This document shows, piece by piece, positions 35,237 to 45,288 of a stretch of 64,000 nucleotides of DNA. Every line of letters starts with the position of its first letter. Position 1 is the first letter of the stretch. The position numbers and the translations under genes are program-made. This stretch comes from Microvirga rosea (GTDB taxonomy: Bacteria; Pseudomonadota; Alphaproteobacteria; Rhizobiales; Beijerinckiaceae): NCBI RefSeq assembly GCF_020595095.1, contig NZ_JAJDOP010000005.1, positions 1 through 64,000 on the forward strand, read 5' to 3'. The notes beneath the pieces were generated by a model. The model had not been told where the DNA came from, made no database searches, and saw only the letters and a list, made by a program, of their open reading frames with translations.

Positions 35237-35968
35237 GTGCTCGGCGACCGCACTGATTACGCAAAGGAAGCCTTCGCTTTCATCGAAAGCCTGGAGCTCT
35301 TGACGGCTCCTCAGGGCGTCATCGATGCCATGGAGCGATCCTTCTCCCGGTTCGGCTTCGAGAATTTCATCATCACCGGACTGCCTCACCCGGAGCAGCG
35401 GATCGAGCGGCTCGTCCTTCTCAAGAAATGGCCGCTGGAATGGTACCGGATATACACCAGCCAAGGTTATGACCGGTACGATCCGGTCATCCGTCTTTGC
35501 CGCCAGACCGTTCAACCCTTCGAATGGTCGGAGGCGCCCTATCATCCTCGCGAGGAGCCGAGAGCCGCCGAGGTGATGATCCGGGCAGGCGAGTTCGGCA
35601 TGCGAGAGGGCTATTGCCTGCCCATCCATGGCTTGAACGGGTACGAAGCCTGCCTGTCGATGAGCGGAAGGGCGCTGGACCTGAGCCCCCAAACCAAACC
35701 GGCCATCCATCTCATGGCCATGTACGCGTTCGAGCGTGCTCGCCAGATCCTCTCCCCGCCGCAAACGGACAACCCTTTAACGGCACGGGAGCGGGAAGCC
35801 CTGCGCTGGGCGGCAGCCGGCAAGTCCGCCCTGGACACCAGCATCATCATGGGGGTCACCGAACGGACCATCACGGCTCATATCGCCAGCGCCTGTCACA
35901 AGCTGAGCGCCGTCAACAAGACTCATGCGGTCGTGCGGGCTCTGCAGCACCGCTTCATTCATCTCTGA
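35237..35968 (+). CDS. LuxR-family quorum-sensing regulator
   Basis: 243 residues. The N-terminal autoinducer domain keeps the ligand-pocket pattern W69, Y73, D82 and W97 (EWYRIY, YDPV, FEWSE), with the same spacing as TraR W57, Y61, D70 and W85. The C-terminal LuxR HTH is at about 180-240 (LTAREREALRWAAAGKS, GVTERTITAHIASACHKL). The start is GTG at 35237, seven bases after GGAGG; an overlapping ATG is out of frame. It lies 94 bases upstream of luxI and probably senses its product. Confidence 0.93.
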   Translation: MLGDRTDYAKEAFAFIESLELLTAPQGVIDAMERSFSRFGFENFIITGLPHPEQRIERLVLLKKWPLEWYRIYTSQGYDRYDPVIRLCRQTVQPFEWSEAPYHPREEPRAAEVMIRAGEFGMREGYCLPIHGLNGYEACLSMSGRALDLSPQTKPAIHLMAMYAFERARQILSPPQTDNPLTAREREALRWAAAGKSALDTSIIMGVTERTITAHIASACHKLSAVNKTHAVVRALQHRFIHL

Positions 35969-35989
35969 TGGTTCGCCTGCCGTAACGGC

Positions 35990-36010
35990 ACCTGTAATTT
36001 CCTACAATAG
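35990..36010 (+). promoter_or_regulatory. Possible lux-box-like dyad upstream of luxI
   Basis: TGTA (35993-35996) and TACA (36003-36006) form a short dyad with six bases between, about 57 bases before the luxI ATG. The flanks match poorly, so this is a weak candidate for the LuxR binding site. Confidence 0.3.
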
Positions 36011-36062
36011 GCATCCGTCGTTTGCCGTGGACAGTGATCCTCATCACCGGAGATCACCCGAC

Positions 36063-36704
36063 ATGACAACGGTTCACGTCATTACTGCAGAGAACAGATC
36101 ATCCTACCGTACGATCCTCGATACGTACTTCCAGGCCCGGCACGAGGTCTTCGTGAAAGAAAGGGGATGGCGGGCGCTCGACCGTGGCGACGGCCGCGAC
36201 ATCGACGCTTACGATAACGACAACGCGACATATCTTCTTGCCCTTGAAGGAGACCGTGTCGTCGGAGGCCTCAGGCTCTACCCGACGATGCTGCCGCATA
36301 TGATCAGCGAAGCGTTTCCGCAGCTGGTTCACGGACGCATCCTTCGCGGCCACCACGTCCTTGAATGCACCCGCTACTTCGTGGTGCGGCAACGTCGGAT
36401 GGGCAGGACCGATTGCCGCCTGTTGGCCGCCTTTCAACAGTTCTGTCTCGATGAGGGCATTACGGAAGTCTCGGCCGTCGTCGAAATGTGGTGGCTTCCG
36501 CGCTGGCATCAGGCCGGCTTCAAGATCAGGCCCCTCGGTCTGCCCGTCATGGTCGAGGATCAGGCGTGCGTGGCCGTCTCGATTTCCGTCTCGTCCGACA
36601 GCCTTGCCCATCTTCGTCGCCTCGCCGGCCTGCAGGGCCCCTACCTCGTCAGGCAGGGCCTGTCCTTTCCGTCTCTCCCACAGGTGCCTTATGCGGCAGC
36701 CTAA
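36063..36704 (+). CDS. Acyl-homoserine-lactone synthase (LuxI family)
   Basis: 213 residues. All invariant LuxI residues are present: R26, F30, W36 (ARHEVFVKERGW), D48 and D51 (DAYD), R71 (GLRLYPT), E101 and R104 (LECTRYFV). The enzyme joins an acyl group from acyl-ACP or acyl-CoA to SAM to make the quorum signal. The frame is open upstream, but the ATG at 36063 (MTTVHVITAE) is the family-like start, with GGAG about ten bases away. It forms a unit with luxR upstream and a small ORF downstream. Acyl-chain specificity cannot be told. Confidence 0.95.
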   Translation: MTTVHVITAENRSSYRTILDTYFQARHEVFVKERGWRALDRGDGRDIDAYDNDNATYLLALEGDRVVGGLRLYPTMLPHMISEAFPQLVHGRILRGHHVLECTRYFVVRQRRMGRTDCRLLAAFQQFCLDEGITEVSAVVEMWWLPRWHQAGFKIRPLGLPVMVEDQACVAVSISVSSDSLAHLRRLAGLQGPYLVRQGLSFPSLPQVPYAAA

Positions 36705-37002: not shown

Positions 37003-37497
37003 TTACGCAGCCTTGGTGTTGACGCGAGCTTCGGCGAGCTTCGTCAGGAGCTCGTCGGTCTTCTTTTCCTCGGCGAGGTTCTGTTCGAGCAATCTCGCTG
37101 CGTCCTGCATGCCAAGTTCCATGGCCCAGGTCTTCAGGGTGCCGTAGCGGGTGATTTCATAGTGCTCAACAGCCTGAGCGGCGGCAAGAATTCCGGCATC
37201 CAGAGCTTCGCTGTCAGCGAAGTCTTCCATGACTTCCTTACCTTCTTCGATGATCCCGTTGATGGCTTCGCATTGGACGCCACGGGCCGGCTTGCCGATC
37301 AGCTTAAAAATCTGTTCCAAGCGCTCGATCTGCCCTTCGGTCTCGTCGCGATGGGTTTCGAAAGCCTGCTTCAACTCTTCGGACTCGGCGTTCTTGGCCA
37401 TCCTGGGCAGCGCCTTCAGGATCTGCTTTTCAGCGTAATAGACGTCCTTCAGGGTATGAAGGAACAAATCGTTCAAAGTCTTTTCCTTGCTCGGCAT
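37003..37497 (-). CDS. DUF892 (YciE/YciF) ferritin-like stress protein
   Basis: 164 residues from MPSKEKTLNDLFLHTLKDVYYAEKQ. The ferritin-like four-helix bundle carries metal-ligand candidates E and H in YYAEKQ, FETHRDE, AAQAVEHYEITRYG and LEQNLAEEKK. YciE/YciF proteins are stress-induced and of uncertain enzymatic role. GGGAG lies nine bases before the ATG. An exact EcfG-type promoter lies upstream, divergent from the one for the next gene. A paralogue is at 53715-54218. Confidence 0.92.
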   Translation of the reverse strand: MPSKEKTLNDLFLHTLKDVYYAEKQILKALPRMAKNAESEELKQAFETHRDETEGQIERLEQIFKLIGKPARGVQCEAINGIIEEGKEVMEDFADSEALDAGILAAAQAVEHYEITRYGTLKTWAMELGMQDAARLLEQNLAEEKKTDELLTKLAEARVNTKAA

Positions 37498-37530
37498 GAT
37501 GACAAACTCCCTATCGTTGAGCGTGGACTC

Positions 37531-37555
37531 AACGACAGCCAAGGTAGGTGGTTCC
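37531..37555 (-). promoter_or_regulatory. EcfG-type promoter of the first DUF892 gene
   Basis: GGAAC (37551-37555), 16 bases, CGTT (37531-37534): an exact match on the minus strand, 33 bases from the ATG. Confidence 0.8.
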
Positions 37556-37590
37556 CGCTCATTTCCAGTCTCCCCAAGATTCACGGAACT

Positions 37591-38703: not shown

Positions 38704-38780
38704 TGGCGCGCCCGAAAGGATTCGAACCTCTGACCCCCAGATTCGTAGTCTGGTGCTCTATCCAGCTGAGCTACGGGCGC
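38704..38780 (-). tRNA. tRNA-Arg (ACG)
   Basis: 77 bases with encoded CCA. Acceptor GCGCCCG/CGGGCGC, anticodon stem CCAGA/TCTGG around CTACGAA (anticodon ACG, read as ICG after deamination). Confidence 0.95.
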
Positions 38781-38897: not shown

Positions 38898-40325
38898 TCA
38901 CGCAGCCTGCCGGTCGGGGATCTGCACGCGGAAACATGTGCCGGTGTTACTCTCCGCCAGGGAAATAGTGCCCCCATGGAGGTGGACCAGCTCGGCCGTG
39001 ATGGCCAGCCCGAGGCCCGTCCCACCTTTTCGAGCCGAACCTTGGAAAGGCGAGAAGAGATCCGCACGGACACGTTCCGGAATTCCCGGGCCGTTGTCCT
39101 TCACGTCGATGACGACGGCATTCCCCTCCCTGATCGCACTCACGGCGATTCGCGGAGAGCCTTCGAAGGATCCGGCCTGGCTCAGCGCCTGAACGGCGTT
39201 CCGGACCAGATTCACCAGAATTCGGGAAAGCTGATCGGGATCCGCATCGATCACGAGCCCTTCGGGCACATGCCGTTCGAAAGCGATTCCCTTCTCGGGA
39301 GCAAGATCGGTCAGATGCGCGAGATCCTCGACCATCGGCTCCAGGGGAATCAGTTGGCGCTGCGGCAGACGTTCCGTCGCCCGTCCATAGGCGAGTGTCG
39401 CCTCGCAAAAGGCGATCGCGCGCCCCAGCGTCGAGATCAAACGCGGAGCGATATTCTGGACCCGCTCGTCGTTCACGCGGTCCAGCCGGTCCGTCAGGAG
39501 CTGGGCCGTCGTCAACATGTTGCGCAGCTCGTGATTGATCTTGCTTACCGCGAGCCCAAGCTCGGCGAGCCGCCGCTTCTGTCGGAGCTCGTCGGCGAGC
39601 GTTGTTTCCATGCGTGCGAGCGCCTGCTCCGCCAGACCGATTTCGTCAGCGCGGTCGGTTGGCTGGATCACGCGGGACGCATCCTCCGGATTTCTGGAGA
39701 ATTCGGCGATGTTGCCTGTCAGGCGGCGCACGGGACGCACGATCACCCATTGAAGGGCGAAATACACCAGACACGCGGTCAGGCCGGAAATGAACAGCGA
39801 CACCAGCAGGATATTGCGCGAGAAGATCAGCATCGCATTCCGCAGAGGCTTGGTGTCGAGAAGGATTTCGACAAACTCGACCCCCATGCCCGAGCCGATG
39901 ATGCGGACGGGATGGGTGGGAGGATTGACCATGAGGTCGAAGGCGTCCCGGATGCTCTGTACCCATGTCACGCTGCGCAGGTCCACGGTCTTGTCGACCT
40001 CGGAAGGCATGTCTCCCGTGGCGAGGAGGCTTCGACGCCCCCCACCCCGGATGGCGATGGCCTTGGCCCCTACTCCGGAAAGAATCCGCATTTCCAGATC
40101 GCCCGCGGGGTTCTGATCCGGCGCCGCATCCAGCACCATTGCGGCGATTTGCGCCGCCGCGAGACGATCATTGAGCCAGGTGAGCCGGAAATTGGCGACC
40201 GACGGGACGTAAATCAGCACTTCCGCAATCATGACGAAGAGAATCGTCAGAAGGAGCAGGCGCGCGGAAAGGCCGAAACGCCTGAGGATTCCCCCTTTGA
40301 GGAAATGCGGTCGCTCAGCTCTCAT
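38898..40325 (-). CDS. Sensor histidine kinase with HAMP domain
   Basis: About 475 residues from MRAERPHFLKGG. Two membrane helices (LLLLTILFVMIAEVLIYV near residue 30 and NILLVSLFISGLTACLVYF near 205) flank a periplasmic sensor of about 150 residues. A HAMP linker (VRPVRRLTGNIAEFSRNP) follows, then a HisKA-type helix with the phospho-histidine in KINHELRNML. The ATP domain has LVNLVRNAVQAL (N), VKDNGPGIP (G1) and GTGLGLAI (G2). AAGGA is five bases before the ATG. It is the last gene of a coupled operon with a flavoprotein and a VTT protein; no response regulator is adjacent. Confidence 0.92.
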   Translation of the reverse strand: MRAERPHFLKGGILRRFGLSARLLLLTILFVMIAEVLIYVPSVANFRLTWLNDRLAAAQIAAMVLDAAPDQNPAGDLEMRILSGVGAKAIAIRGGGRRSLLATGDMPSEVDKTVDLRSVTWVQSIRDAFDLMVNPPTHPVRIIGSGMGVEFVEILLDTKPLRNAMLIFSRNILLVSLFISGLTACLVYFALQWVIVRPVRRLTGNIAEFSRNPEDASRVIQPTDRADEIGLAEQALARMETTLADELRQKRRLAELGLAVSKINHELRNMLTTAQLLTDRLDRVNDERVQNIAPRLISTLGRAIAFCEATLAYGRATERLPQRQLIPLEPMVEDLAHLTDLAPEKGIAFERHVPEGLVIDADPDQLSRILVNLVRNAVQALSQAGSFEGSPRIAVSAIREGNAVVIDVKDNGPGIPERVRADLFSPFQGSARKGGTGLGLAITAELVHLHGGTISLAESNTGTCFRVQIPDRQAA

Positions 40326-40333
40326 CCTGTCCT

Positions 40334-41797
40334 TTACCCCAGGCGGCCGACGAGACCGGCCAGACGTCTGAGCCATGGATTCTGCGCCGAGGGCTTCAGA
40401 AATTCCACTGCGGCAGTTTTCGTGGCTTCCGACAACGTCAGATGCGGATAGACAAGCCCCGCGAGATCCCCGACCTTCAGGCCCTTGGTCATGGCCAGGC
40501 CCCAAGGCACGATCAGATCCCCGGCCCGCGGGCCCACGATCGTACACCCGAGAATCCGCCCATTGGGCGTAACGACCGCTTTGACATGCCCGGCCATGTC
40601 CCGTTCCGCGCGCGCCCGGCCATTGTCGGAAAACGGGGATCGCAGGATGCGGATATGTCCGTATCGGGCGCGAGCCTCTTCCTCGGCCATCCCGATGGCT
40701 GCCAGCTCCGGGGCGGTTCGGACGATGCGCGGGATCGGGATTGCTTCCAAATGAACCGGGAGCCGGAACAGGATATTGCGGACGACAAGTCCCGCATGAT
40801 GGTCCGTTTCCTGAACTGGTGAGCCCGCATGGCCGCGGACGCAGGTCCCGATCGCATAAATTCGCGCATTCGCGGTGCGCAGGCCGCGATCCACCTGGAT
40901 CCCCGTGGAATCGGCCTTGATCCGAGCCTTGTCGAGGCCGAATCCTTCGAGGTTCGGAGAGCGTCCTGCCGCAACCAGGAGATGGCTTGCCTCCAAAGTC
41001 TCTTCAGACTCGCCATTCTTCACAACCGCCGCAAAGGCCGCATCGCCCCGCTTCTCGATTCGGTCGAGAATCATGCCCGTTCGGATGACGACGCCCTCCG
41101 AGCGGAGCGTTCGGTCGACCACGGCCGCCATTTCGGGATCTTCGTCTTCGAGGATGCGGGCACTGGCGCCGATGAGAGTGACCTGCGCCCCCAGGCGGCG
41201 ATAGGCCTGTGCCGCCTCGACCGCAACGGGACCGTCTCCGAGAACGATGAGGTGGCTTGGTAGTGTCGTGCGATCCAGCGGGGTGTCGCATGTCAGGTAG
41301 GGAATGGCCTCCAGACCCGGAATACCGGGAATCGACGACCGGGAGCCGGTCGCAAGGACGAACCGGCGGGCCCTGACGAGTTCGCCCCCGGCTGCGAGGA
41401 CGGCCCGGTCGACGAACTCGGCTCCGCCTTCGAGCACCCGGACGCCCATGGCCCTGTATCGCTCCAGAGCGTTCATGGGAGCAGCGGATCGAAGCACGTC
41501 CTGGACATGGGCCCGGACGGCTTCAAACGCGATATCCGGCTCCTGTCCCAGGCCGATTCCGAAGCGGCCGGCATGGCGACCACCGAATGCCTGATCGGCG
41601 GCGGCGCGCAGGGCCTGTGCCTGAAGGGTCCCGGCCGGGAGCCGATAGGTCTCCCTGTCGTGACCGACGAGCACCACCGACGCGCCGAACGCGGTCGCCA
41701 TGGCGGCAACGGACAATCCTGCGGGATCGCTCCCGATGACGCACACATCCGGTCTCAACGCGGCCCTTTTCTGATCGGGCTTCTTTGTCGAAGTCAC
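40334..41797 (-). CDS. Lipoamide dehydrogenase/mercuric reductase-fold flavoprotein lacking the redox cysteines
   Basis: 487 residues. The FAD-binding start is DVCVIGSDPAGLSVAAMA, with NAD(P) binding at LIVLGDGPVAVEAAQAYRRLG, FAD-ribose contact at IYAIGTCVRG and a C-terminal dimerisation domain ending PHLTLSEATKTAA, which keeps the His-x4-Glu dyad. The usual CxxxxC pair after the first FAD motif is replaced by RLPAGTLQAQALR (about residues 52-64). The enzyme cannot use the normal active-site disulfide. The start is GTG at 41797, six bases after AAGGAG and overlapping the upstream stop by four bases; the longer frame to 41953 would lie inside the VTT gene. Substrate unknown. Confidence 0.88.
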   Translation of the reverse strand: MTSTKKPDQKRAALRPDVCVIGSDPAGLSVAAMATAFGASVVLVGHDRETYRLPAGTLQAQALRAAADQAFGGRHAGRFGIGLGQEPDIAFEAVRAHVQDVLRSAAPMNALERYRAMGVRVLEGGAEFVDRAVLAAGGELVRARRFVLATGSRSSIPGIPGLEAIPYLTCDTPLDRTTLPSHLIVLGDGPVAVEAAQAYRRLGAQVTLIGASARILEDEDPEMAAVVDRTLRSEGVVIRTGMILDRIEKRGDAAFAAVVKNGESEETLEASHLLVAAGRSPNLEGFGLDKARIKADSTGIQVDRGLRTANARIYAIGTCVRGHAGSPVQETDHHAGLVVRNILFRLPVHLEAIPIPRIVRTAPELAAIGMAEEEARARYGHIRILRSPFSDNGRARAERDMAGHVKAVVTPNGRILGCTIVGPRAGDLIVPWGLAMTKGLKVGDLAGLVYPHLTLSEATKTAAVEFLKPSAQNPWLRRLAGLVGRLG

Positions 41798-42591
41798 GCT
41801 CGCTCCTTTACGGTCCGGCTCCGCCACCATCGAAACAGGATGGGAAACAGAGCCAGGATACTCAATACGCCCAAGGCTATCATCAATTCGGCGGTGAGAA
41901 GGTCTTGAAGGCTCAGGGAAACGCGACAGTCGCCCCGGCCGGTCGCCAGACACTGCTGAAGGATTTCATTTTCCTGGTCAATCACATGATCCAGTCCCGA
42001 CCCGGCGACCGCGAAGGCGAATGCGGTGGGGAGCATGCCGAGCTGCGTCGCCAGGATGAAGGTCTTGAGCCGCACGCCGAAGACCGCCGCGGCCAGATTG
42101 GTGACCCAGAAGGGCATGACCGGCAGGATGCGGAGAAACAGCACATAAGAGAACGCATTGCGGTTGAAGCCCTTGGCCAGGGCCTGGATCCGGGCGCCCG
42201 CCCAGCGGCGCAGCACCTCACCCAGGGAGGTTCGGGCGATCAGAAAGATGTTGGTTGCTCCAACCGTGGCCGATACGGCGGCGATGATGCCGCCGAACGC
42301 CCACCCGAAAAGATACCCCCCCAGCGTCGACAGGAAGGCGGAAGCCGGAATGGATAAGGTGGTGATGCCGATATATGCCAGGATATAGACCCCGAACGCC
42401 GCAAGGCGGCGCTCGTCCACAAAATGCCGGACCGCGTCATAATGGCGGACCAAGCTGTCAAGGCTGAGGGCATGGTGCAGACCGAAAGCAAAGAAAGCCC
42501 CCGCAGCGATCAGGACCAATCCGAGGGGGAGGAAACGCCATAGGGACGCACCGGGACCCTTCACTTCTTGCTGCTGTTCTTCGACGGCCAC
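41794..42591 (-). CDS. TVP38/TMEM64 (VTT/DedA-like) membrane protein
   Basis: 265 residues with about six hydrophobic segments. The VTT domain is marked by SIPASAFLSTLGGYLFGWAFG, VGATNIFLIARTSLGEVL and LRILPVMPFWVTNLAAAVFGV. DedA/VTT proteins are linked to lipid or proton-coupled transport. The start is GTG at 42591, with AAGGG upstream; an overlapping ATG is out of frame. It is the first gene of an operon with the cysteine-less flavoprotein and a histidine kinase. Confidence 0.9.
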   Translation of the reverse strand: MAVEEQQQEVKGPGASLWRFLPLGLVLIAAGAFFAFGLHHALSLDSLVRHYDAVRHFVDERRLAAFGVYILAYIGITTLSIPASAFLSTLGGYLFGWAFGGIIAAVSATVGATNIFLIARTSLGEVLRRWAGARIQALAKGFNRNAFSYVLFLRILPVMPFWVTNLAAAVFGVRLKTFILATQLGMLPTAFAFAVAGSGLDHVIDQENEILQQCLATGRGDCRVSLSLQDLLTAELMIALGVLSILALFPILFRWWRSRTVKERA

Positions 42592-43010: not shown

Positions 43011-43451
43011 ATGCGCGACCCTCGCGCAAGTTCGGTCGGGCGCCTGACGAAACGATCTGATTTCGTTGCGGCGGCCTCTGGCCGCCGCTTTCATACGGAG
43101 CGGATGACGGTCCAGGGCCGCCTGCGGAACGACGCTGAGCTTAGCGGCGACAGCAACCGCCTCAGGATCGGCCTGACGGTCACCAAGCGAGTCGGTCATG
43201 CAACCGAGCGGAACCGGATCAAGCGGCGGCTGAGAACCGCATGCCGCGTCGCAGGTCTGGATTATGCCGAGATCCATGCCGATATCGTGGTGATCGGACG
43301 GCGCGACATCCTCACCGCTGATTACGATCAGCTTCTTGACGATCTTCGGCGGGCGCTGCGCGTCGTCACCAAGCCGAAAACGGCGCGGCCCGAGGGCCGC
43401 CCTACCTCCTCACCTCCCAACGGCGAGCGTCGCGGACATACCCATGCGTAA
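43011..43451 (+). CDS. rnpA: Ribonuclease P protein component
   Basis: 146 residues. It carries the RNR signature [15 protein letters not shown] and the N-terminal [16 protein letters not shown] block. RnpA binds RNase P RNA to mature tRNA 5' ends. The C-terminal 25 residues ([19 protein letters not shown]) are a disordered extension beyond the usual family end. It overlaps the yidC start by eight bases, so the two are translationally coupled. Confidence 0.95.
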
Positions 43452-45288
43452 TGAGAACAAAAACCTCATCGTCGCCATCGTGCTGTCGATGGCGATTTTG
43501 ATTGGCTGGCAGTACTTCTTCGCGGCGCCGGAGGCTGAAAAGCATCGCCAGGCGGCCCAGACCGCTCAACAATCCGCGCAGACCAACCCGGCGGCTCCGA
43601 CACCGAGCCAGGCGGGAGGGCCGGCCGCTCCGGTTCCCGGAACGGTTCCGGCAACGCCCGGAGCGCCTGTGGTCGAATCCCGCGAAGCCGCGCTCGCCCG
43701 CTCGCCGCGCCTCCCGATCGAGACCCCCGCCATCATTGGCTCCATCAATCTGCGCGGCGCACGGGTCGACGACGTCTCCCTGCGGACCTACCACGAGACG
43801 GTGGATCCCAAGAGCCCCAACATCGTGCTGCTTTCGCCTACGGGCAGCCAGAATCCCTATTACGCGGAATTCGGCTGGGTCGGGGCGCAGCCCGACGCCG
43901 TCCCCGGCCCGAACACCGTCTGGACGGCCGACAAGGACAAGCTGACCCCATCGAGCCCCGTGACCCTTTCCTGGGATAACGGCAAAGGGCAGATCTTCCG
44001 CCGGGTCCTGTCCGTCGACGACAAGTTCATGTTCACGGTCAAGGACAGCGTGGAGAACCGCGGCTCGGATCCCGTGACGCTGCATCCCTATAGCCTCGTG
44101 TCCCGCCATGGCAGGCCGACCACCCTCGGCTACTACGTGCTCCATGAGGGCATGATCGGTGTCCTGGGCGACCAGGGCCTGCAGGAATATACCTACGCCA
44201 AGCTCGACAAGGAAAACCCCGTGGCCGGCCAGAACGTGGTCGGGCGGATGTGGGATAACGTGACCGGCGGGTTCGTGGGCATCACGGACAAGTACTGGGC
44301 CGCAGCCGTGATCCCCGATCAGGGACAGAGCTATCAAGGGTCCTTCACGGTTCGCCAGGATCCCAATGGACCGACCTATCAGGCCAATGTCCTGGGTGTC
44401 GCGCAGACCGTGCAGCCCGGCGCCACCGCCGAGATGACCCAGCGGATCTTCGCAGGCGCCAAGGAAGTGGCGACCGTCGATCAGTATGCGAACAACCTGA
44501 AGATCAAGAACTTCGATCTCCTGATCGACTGGGGCTGGTTCTATTTCATCACCAAGCCGCTCTTCAAGGTCCTGGACTTTTTCTACAAGCTCTTCGGCAA
44601 CTTCGGCGTGGCGATCCTGCTCGTCACCGTCATCCTGAAGGCGTTGTTCTTCCCGCTTGCCAGCAAATCCTACGCCTCCATGGCGAAGATGAAGGCCGTT
44701 CAGCCTGAGATGGCTTCGATCCGCGAGCGCTACGCGGACGACAAGGTGAAGCAGCAGCAGGCGCTAATGGAGCTCTACCGCAAGGAGAAGATCAATCCGG
44801 TGGCGGGCTGCTGGCCCGTGCTGATCCAGATTCCGGTCTTCTTCGCGCTCTATAAGGTGCTCTTCGTCACCATCGAAATGCGCCATGCGCCCTTCTTCGG
44901 CTGGATCCGCGACCTTGCCGCGCCCGATCCGACATCGGTGTTCAACCTCTTCGGCCTCATTCCGTACAACCCGGGCGCCGTGCCGGTGATCGGCCACTTC
45001 CTCATGCTTGGCGCCTGGCCGCTGATCATGGGTGTGACCATGTGGCTGCAGATGAAGATGAATCCCGAGCCGCCGGATCCGGTACAAAAGCAAGTTTTCG
45101 CCTGGATGCCCGTGATCTTCACGTTCATGCTGGGCTCCTTCCCGGCGGGTCTCGTGATCTACTGGGCCTGGAACAACCTCCTCTCGGTGACTCAGCAGGC
45201 CTTCATCATGAAGAAGAACGGCGTCAGGATCGAACTGGTGCACAATCTTCGCAGCACCTTCAGCAAGAAGGCCCCCGCAAAGGGCTGA
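43444..45288 (+). CDS. yidC: Membrane protein insertase YidC
   Basis: 614 residues from [20 protein letters not shown]. An N-terminal membrane helix and an Ala/Pro-rich linker lead to a large periplasmic beta domain (to about residue 350). The conserved insertase core follows: [40 protein letters not shown], and the final helices [20 protein letters not shown]. The ATG at 43444 lies inside the end of rnpA and fits the family start. A strong terminator follows the gene. Confidence 0.97.

Follow-up and report, generated by a model that had tools for sequence, protein, structure and literature searches.

What is an oxidoreductase still good for once the residues that carry its chemistry are gone? 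The question is raised by a three-gene locus in a 64,000-nucleotide stretch of the Microvirga rosea genome (contig NZ_JAJDOP010000005.1, positions 1 to 64,000; hereafter the window), where a VTT (DedA/TVP38-type) membrane protein, a flavoprotein homologue and a histidine kinase are encoded in tandem. The flavoprotein homologue has the fold of Lpd and MerA and lacks the redox cysteine pair of its relatives. The explanation that we put first, giving it about half of our confidence, is that it is a pseudo-oxidoreductase, probably catalytically dead, which selection maintains as a folded dimer.

Loss of the redox site and of cofactor landmarks

By its Pfam matches (PF07992 and PF02852), its AlphaFold2 model and its structural match, the window flavoprotein belongs to the class I pyridine nucleotide-disulfide oxidoreductase fold. 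The model has a mean pLDDT of 91.1 and is confident except in the former redox loop (pLDDT <50 at residues 49-51) and the N-terminal tail, with PDB 2eq6 as its top structural match (TM 0.85/0.90); the fold is predicted to be intact. The redox-active CxxxxC is missing, as RLPAGTLQAQALR in the window aligns with CLNVGCVPSKALI of close relatives. A first-pass annotation of the locus, made from the letters alone, had reported the absence of the pair and had held ordinary disulfide chemistry to be impossible for this protein; another sequence indeed occupies the site, and the loss of both cysteines supports the second claim. A local sequencing or frame artefact is ruled out, since four species lack the pair, with differing letters and with all frames open.

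The protein is not a mercuric reductase (TIGR02053, 269.8 bits, below the cut-off of 454.45), nor is it a dihydrolipoamide dehydrogenase (TIGR01350, 247.9 bits, below the cut-off of 408.8). The window genome has a single such flavoprotein gene, its five other matches being paralogues at 29-32% identity, and a contig scan using the window flavoprotein as query returned no match.

Five further landmarks were picked from an alignment to solved structures together with general knowledge of the family: the middle Gly of the first flavin adenine dinucleotide (FAD) motif, the ribose Glu, the ATG Gly, the GD Asp and the Gly of the nicotinamide adenine dinucleotide (NAD) motif. They were scored in 120 pair-bearing and 18 pair-less copies (partial G050 excluded), allowing Ala in place of Gly and Asp in place of Glu; pair-less here denotes a broken pair, not necessarily the loss of both cysteines. 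All five are complete in every pair-bearing copy. The window copy retains two, ATG and the NAD GxGxxA, and of the FAD landmarks (GxGxxG, ribose Glu, ATG and GD) ATG alone remains (Table 1). Among the 18 pair-less copies, five landmarks are kept in 4, four in 2, three in 4, two in 6 (including the window) and one in 2. The earlier statement that the protein keeps FAD and NAD binding is not confirmed: the NAD motif and ATG are present, and the FAD part is contradicted by GSDPAG, Gly45 and GT. Its companion, that a C-terminal His-x4-Glu is kept, is misleading, since nearly all pair-bearing relatives have Tyr at the position of His452, as has the aligned MerA. His is found there in 5 of the 18 pair-less copies, and by the alignment His452 of the window is a secondary change.

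Because the FAD landmarks are eroded, flavin chemistry is doubtful. One could still envisage a working flavoenzyme without a disulfide, such as an NAD(P)H oxidase or quinone reductase. The predicted overall fold and the NAD GxGxxA of the window copy agree with this, as do the 4 of 18 pair-less copies that keep all five landmarks. In the window copy, however, the pyrophosphate Gly of the FAD site is gone, as are the ribose Glu and the GD Asp. Moreover, the members of the window clade (G000, G001, G029 and G071; four species) differ from one another at several landmark sites, reading G, D, G and G at the ribose-Glu position, as expected of sites free to drift. We consider a working enzyme of this kind quite unlikely.

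Purifying selection on the pair-less gene

The flavoprotein gene is full length in all four members of the window clade. In this clade, a codon model put the omega of the flavoprotein at 0.112 and that of the kinase at 0.037, next to 0.069-0.109 and 0.044-0.060, respectively, in three pair-bearing sets. For the window-clade flavoprotein, omega=1 was rejected (2 delta lnL 624), also in each of its four domains. When neutral evolution was simulated in a simple way to 0.38 substitutions per site, a mean of 8.2 stops accumulated, and none of 300 runs had fewer than 2. At positions that are invariant in 16 pair-bearing genus copies, the window protein retains 49 of 57 in the dimer domain and 35 of 55 in the first FAD part. 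Elsewhere among pair-less copies, four other pairs have pairwise omega values of 0.18-0.47; a set of G010, G022, G002 and G005 gave 0.044 at a saturated tree length of 17.7, from which no inference was drawn.

The full-length frames, the low omega and the confident model together indicate that the flavoprotein is retained under real constraint, which is best seen in the dimerisation domain. Judged by its coding pattern, the gene is no pseudogene, and its product is a probable pseudoenzyme: catalytic residues are lost and purifying selection persists.

Repeated pair loss and gene loss in relatives

Among 47 loci of the genus, 16 carry a full-length flavoprotein gene with the pair, 9 a full-length gene without it and 13 a relic fragment; protein search found none in the remaining 9. 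Close homologues thus do have the pair (16 of the 25 full-length genus copies), an outcome that the first-pass annotation had named as refuting its reading and as pointing to a local loss. It is not a local loss only, since in a FastTree tree of 119 kinase-adjacent flavoproteins the pair trait needs at least six changes on starred branches (two long branches being unsurely placed). On the kinase tree, the full-length genus copies alone need three. By both trees, similar losses of the cysteine pair occurred several times in related bacteria. Neither cysteine remains in 13 of the 18 pair-less copies, including the window, and the second is kept in the other 5 (G005, G070, G089, G137 and G171).

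In the order sample, for which 115 flavoprotein rows down to 422 bits were used and weaker Lpd-like rows dropped, 85 kinase-adjacent copies have the pair and 10 do not, and all 20 copies elsewhere have it. A class sample outside the genus and order sets has the pair in 56 of 56 readable copies, 30 of them kinase-adjacent and 26 (of 26) elsewhere; a 57th, L343, is truncated by its contig end short of the cysteine site and is uncounted.

Where no intact gene exists in the genus, its 3' end is still recognised directly before the kinase in 20 of 22 loci by a DNA profile of pair-bearing genes (0/22 in shuffled controls). Another flavoprotein copy, sought genome-wide in 17 of these 22 genomes, was not found at E 1e-60. 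These observations allow the locus to be read as one of slow decay, in which the gene is in the course of being lost and its open frame in the window is a snapshot before a loss already seen in sister lineages. The 13 relic and 9 absent loci and the 3' remnants agree with such a course, and so does the faster protein evolution compared with pair-bearing copies. Set against it are the full-length genes of all four window-clade species at a synonymous divergence (dS) of 0.76-1.75, and the low omega with constraint in all four domains. Slow decay is accordingly a possible but rather unlikely account.

The remnant itself is worth recording. Where the flavoprotein gene is dead (L081-L103), ~120-200 bases of its 3' end, a part located at 40334-40470 in the window, survive directly before the kinase, and more survives in G014, G015 and G019. 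In pair-bearing genes, four-fold site conservation is 0.69 in the last bin and 0.62 over the last 43 codons, compared with 0.53 in the rest, and 4 of 454 sliding windows reach the value of the tail. A small protein encoded by the surviving tail was considered; the frames are broken in several relics, and expression signals of the kinase are therefore favoured over it. The pattern is suggestive only, and a kinase promoter or leader may lie inside the 3' end of the upstream flavoprotein gene.

Link to the VTT gene and a possible scaffold role

A VTT gene was sought up to about 1300 bases upstream, and absences were confirmed with a VTT profile. In the order sample it is absent upstream of 8 of 10 pair-less and 6 of 85 pair-bearing kinase-adjacent copies (Fisher p 9.8e-7); over all 119 kinase-adjacent copies, the counts are 11 of 18 and 6 of 101. 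Three genomes (G041, G051 and G055) have a second, pair-bearing copy together with a VTT gene away from the kinase, and in these the copy beside the kinase lacks both the pair and VTT. In G001, the nearest relative of the window (kinase identity 89%), VTT is a fragment with only residues 216-265 recognisable, and flavoprotein and kinase are whole. The redox chemistry may thus belong to the VTT partnership, with the residual protein body serving the locus otherwise, perhaps together with the kinase. As a separate observation, G011 has a second pair-bearing VTT-flavoprotein pair (L036), for which the stored DNA shows no match to the kinase, and the kinase locus of this genome also keeps the cysteine pair.

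In the intact system, flavoprotein and VTT protein would work together, electrons passing from NAD(P)H via FAD and the two cysteines to an acceptor. In the window copy this chemistry would have stopped, and the folded dimer would be what is selected, serving at the membrane as a scaffold or as a binding partner. It perhaps touches the kinase, which brings an N-terminal region of its own and is not dependent on the flavoprotein; a scaffold role at the kinase is what we infer from these sequences.

Several points weigh against this interpretation. The VTT association fails correction for phylogeny (4 to 0 independent pairs and 2 ties, p 0.125 by sign test), and one of its 2 exceptions is the window, which keeps VTT. 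The contrast in kinase adjacency between pair-less and pair-bearing copies is not significant (Fisher p 0.21 for the order, 0.064 with the class added), and the rows are related. Eight further pair-less copies of the genus were collected by way of the kinase locus, which makes their adjacency partly a matter of construction. Pair-less copies also score low, and with rows below 422 bits dropped, distant pair-less copies elsewhere were possibly missed. With 22 of the 47 genus loci no longer carrying an intact gene, any scaffold role must be dispensable, and not all pair-less copies need be dead, given that 5 of 18 keep the second cysteine and 4 keep five landmarks. Omega is imprecise because dS is high (0.76-1.75). 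Finally, measured against kinase divergence, the flavoprotein has changed about twice as much as it has in pair-bearing pairs (identity 0.56-0.60 at kinase identity 0.86-0.89, compared with 0.74-0.75 at 0.87-0.88), which also fits slow decay.

Persistence of the kinase without the flavoprotein

The third gene encodes a histidine kinase, as indicated by a HATPase_c match and a conserved phospho-acceptor His; His265 is invariant in 17 of 17 aligned orthologues, and no HisKA-type Pfam domain is listed for the protein in the Pfam scan. Two hydrophobic segments, judged by eye, flank its own N-terminal region, and an AlphaFold2 model of middling quality (pLDDT 78.3, pTM 0.43) places an alpha/beta region at about residues 75-157 between long helices. 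No receiver domain was detected by Pfam in the ten neighbouring window ORFs (open reading frames) scanned, a distant regulator not being sought, in agreement with the first description of the kinase as one without a partner regulator.

The kinase is present in 47 of 48 genus genomes, 130 of 140 genomes of the order and 52 of 115 genomes of the class. In the order sample, 95 of the 115 flavoprotein copies adjoin it, adjacency being defined as same strand and a gap of <1500 bases (<2500 bases in the class sample). An intact adjacent flavoprotein is missing from 22 of 47 genus loci, from 36 of 130 order genomes at the thresholds used and from 19 of 50 class genomes; a number of the copies scored as non-adjacent reflect contig ends (e.g., G050:C309, G170:C258 and G250:C304) or possibly threshold effects. 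VTT stands upstream of the flavoprotein or kinase at most genus loci, and the window genome has no second VTT match at E 0.001. In these occurrence counts the kinase is more constant than the VTT-flavoprotein module, which comes and goes.

A kinase-profile scan matched at least 80 loci; of the 80 listed, 19 clear orthologues (L117-L135) were used and L136-L196 set aside as other kinases. Among the matches listed, 9 of the 19 named loci have VTT, flavoprotein and kinase, 1 has flavoprotein and kinase, and 1, from Brevundimonas, has VTT and kinase (VTT upstream at 10 in all); the remaining 8 show no VTT or flavoprotein in the stored DNA, of which some loci have only a short stretch. The flavoproteins at these listed loci have the cysteine pair in 10 of 10. 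A search for the three-gene arrangement in other genomes, as had been proposed, hence finds it again in Alphaproteobacteria, usually with CLNxGCVPSK in the flavoprotein, and the window copy is therefore a derived form.

Such counts bear on the proposal that the flavoprotein is a required input subunit, generating or reading the signal of the kinase. Gene adjacency with its short spacings (given below) speaks for it, as does the finding of pair-less copies only beside the kinase, although that contrast is not significant. The kinase nevertheless persists with or without the flavoprotein, at the frequencies given above, although some of the order and class cases may reflect threshold effects or contig ends; it also brings an N-terminal region of its own. 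Dependence of the kinase on the flavoprotein is rejected on the 22 of 47 genus loci, the signal-generating or signal-reading role put forward in the first-pass annotation is left unsupported, and we regard a required input subunit as improbable.

Returning to the pseudo-oxidoreductase, we see in one syntenic locus a natural series that runs from intact gene through selected pseudoenzyme and relic to empty site across dozens of species. It makes testable both the function of the VTT-flavoprotein pair and the use of an oxidoreductase after its chemistry is lost. A wider generalisation, which we hold to be unlikely, is that repeated, independent conversions have made a disulfide oxidoreductase into a non-catalytic regulatory partner of a single core histidine kinase of Alphaproteobacteria, the protein body surviving only next to the kinase once the VTT and redox partnership weakens.

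Operon layout and conserved neighbors

The operon had been described with a 4-base GTGA overlap and an 8-base gap, and coordinates and Pfam matches agree: the VTT stop and flavoprotein start share the four bases, and eight separate flavoprotein and kinase (Table 1).

TABLE 1 Features of the locus in the window
Feature	Position	Strand	Basis
VTT (DedA/TVP38-type) membrane protein, 265 amino acids, GTG start	41794..42591	-	PF09335, 75.4 bits (cut-off 33.9), E 6.8e-21
Lpd/MerA-fold flavoprotein homologue without redox cysteine pair (putative pseudo-oxidoreductase), 487 amino acids, GTG start	40334..41797	-	PF07992, 153 bits; PF02852, 90.2 bits
FAD GxGxxG eroded to GSDPAG (middle Gly to Asp24)	41717..41734	-	Gly in 120/120 pair-bearing copies
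Ribose-binding Glu changed to Gly45	41663..41665	-	Glu in 120/120 pair-bearing copies
Residues 52-64, RLPAGTLQAQALR replacing CLNVGCVPSKALI; both cysteines and Lys lost	41606..41644	-	Alignments
Asp of second FAD motif (YAIGD) changed to Thr318 (GD reads GT)	40844..40846	-	Asp in 120/120 pair-bearing copies
His452	40442..40444	-	Tyr at this position in 118/120 pair-bearing relatives, Phe in 2
Orphan histidine kinase, 475 amino acids, H-box KINHELRN	38898..40325	-	PF02518, 86.8 bits (cut-off 26.4)
tRNA-Arg(ACG), 3' of kinase, conserved neighbor	38704..38780	-	ARAGORN
rnpA, divergent neighbor	43011..43451	+	Pfam
yidC, after rnpA	43336-45288		Pfam

The surroundings of the locus are largely fixed. 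ARAGORN found tRNA-Arg(ACG) at 35 of the 36 genus loci L080-L115, the exception (L096) being cut by the contig start, and tblastn found both rnpA and yidC at all 36. Among the matches listed, 12 of the 19 named loci have tRNA-Arg(ACG) on the strand of the kinase and less than 400 bases from its matched end, 15 have rnpA and 12 have yidC (tblastn). The kinase is thus encountered as a widespread orphan of Alphaproteobacteria, mostly beside tRNA-Arg(ACG) and rnpA/yidC, of which no description was found in the open-access literature searched.

Farther out, Pfam identifies a LuxR-type regulator with an autoinducer-binding domain followed by an autoinducer synthase (window 35237-36704), and a DUF892 protein gene (window 37003-37584) lies between this quorum-sensing pair and the tRNA cluster. 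On the plus strand, a 491-codon open frame (window 38976-40451) runs antisense to the kinase, probably an effect of high G+C.

Comparison with known systems

No paper on the VTT-flavoprotein-kinase trio was found in the open-access literature searched, most subscription journals lying outside it. Among the closest described architectures is the bifunctional TVP38/TMEM64-FAD oxidoreductase, in which a COG0398 DedA/TVP38 protein is fused to PF07992 and PF02852, the same two modules as in the window pair; among ten plasmid rows listed, two bear the annotation of such a fusion. The window differs in having separate genes, a histidine kinase and no redox cysteines. According to one study, fusions to PF07992/PF02852 are the commonest of the COG0398 subfamily, whose members may be phospholipid scramblases and are, per other work cited there, essential in Caulobacter crescentus and Dinoroseobacter shibae (mBio 2023, PMC10127716). 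The window protein is a member of the VTT/DedA family, with PF09335 above its cut-off, and likely belongs to COG0398, to judge from its partner flavoprotein.

Within the flavoprotein superfamily, MerA 5x1y is the best solved-structure match by sequence. It has a Tyr near the C-terminus, as do the pair-bearing relatives of the window protein, which differs from MerA (TIGR02053) in having no cysteines at its redox site and in missing the family cut-off. Dihydrolipoamide dehydrogenase (TIGR01350) has the fold in common with the window flavoprotein; the latter lacks the redox cysteines, and its relatives have Tyr for the catalytic His. The best NCBIfam match is the FAD-containing oxidoreductase PRK06370 (NF004991), with 303 bits over residues 15-481 and a cut-off of 620 that is missed. 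Also close are the pair-bearing orthologues in the same operon, for example at the Ruegeria, Roseibium and Pseudorhodoplanes loci, which share the gene order of the window and, at 38-47% identity in the four named rows aligned, keep the CLNxGCVPSK that the window copy has lost.

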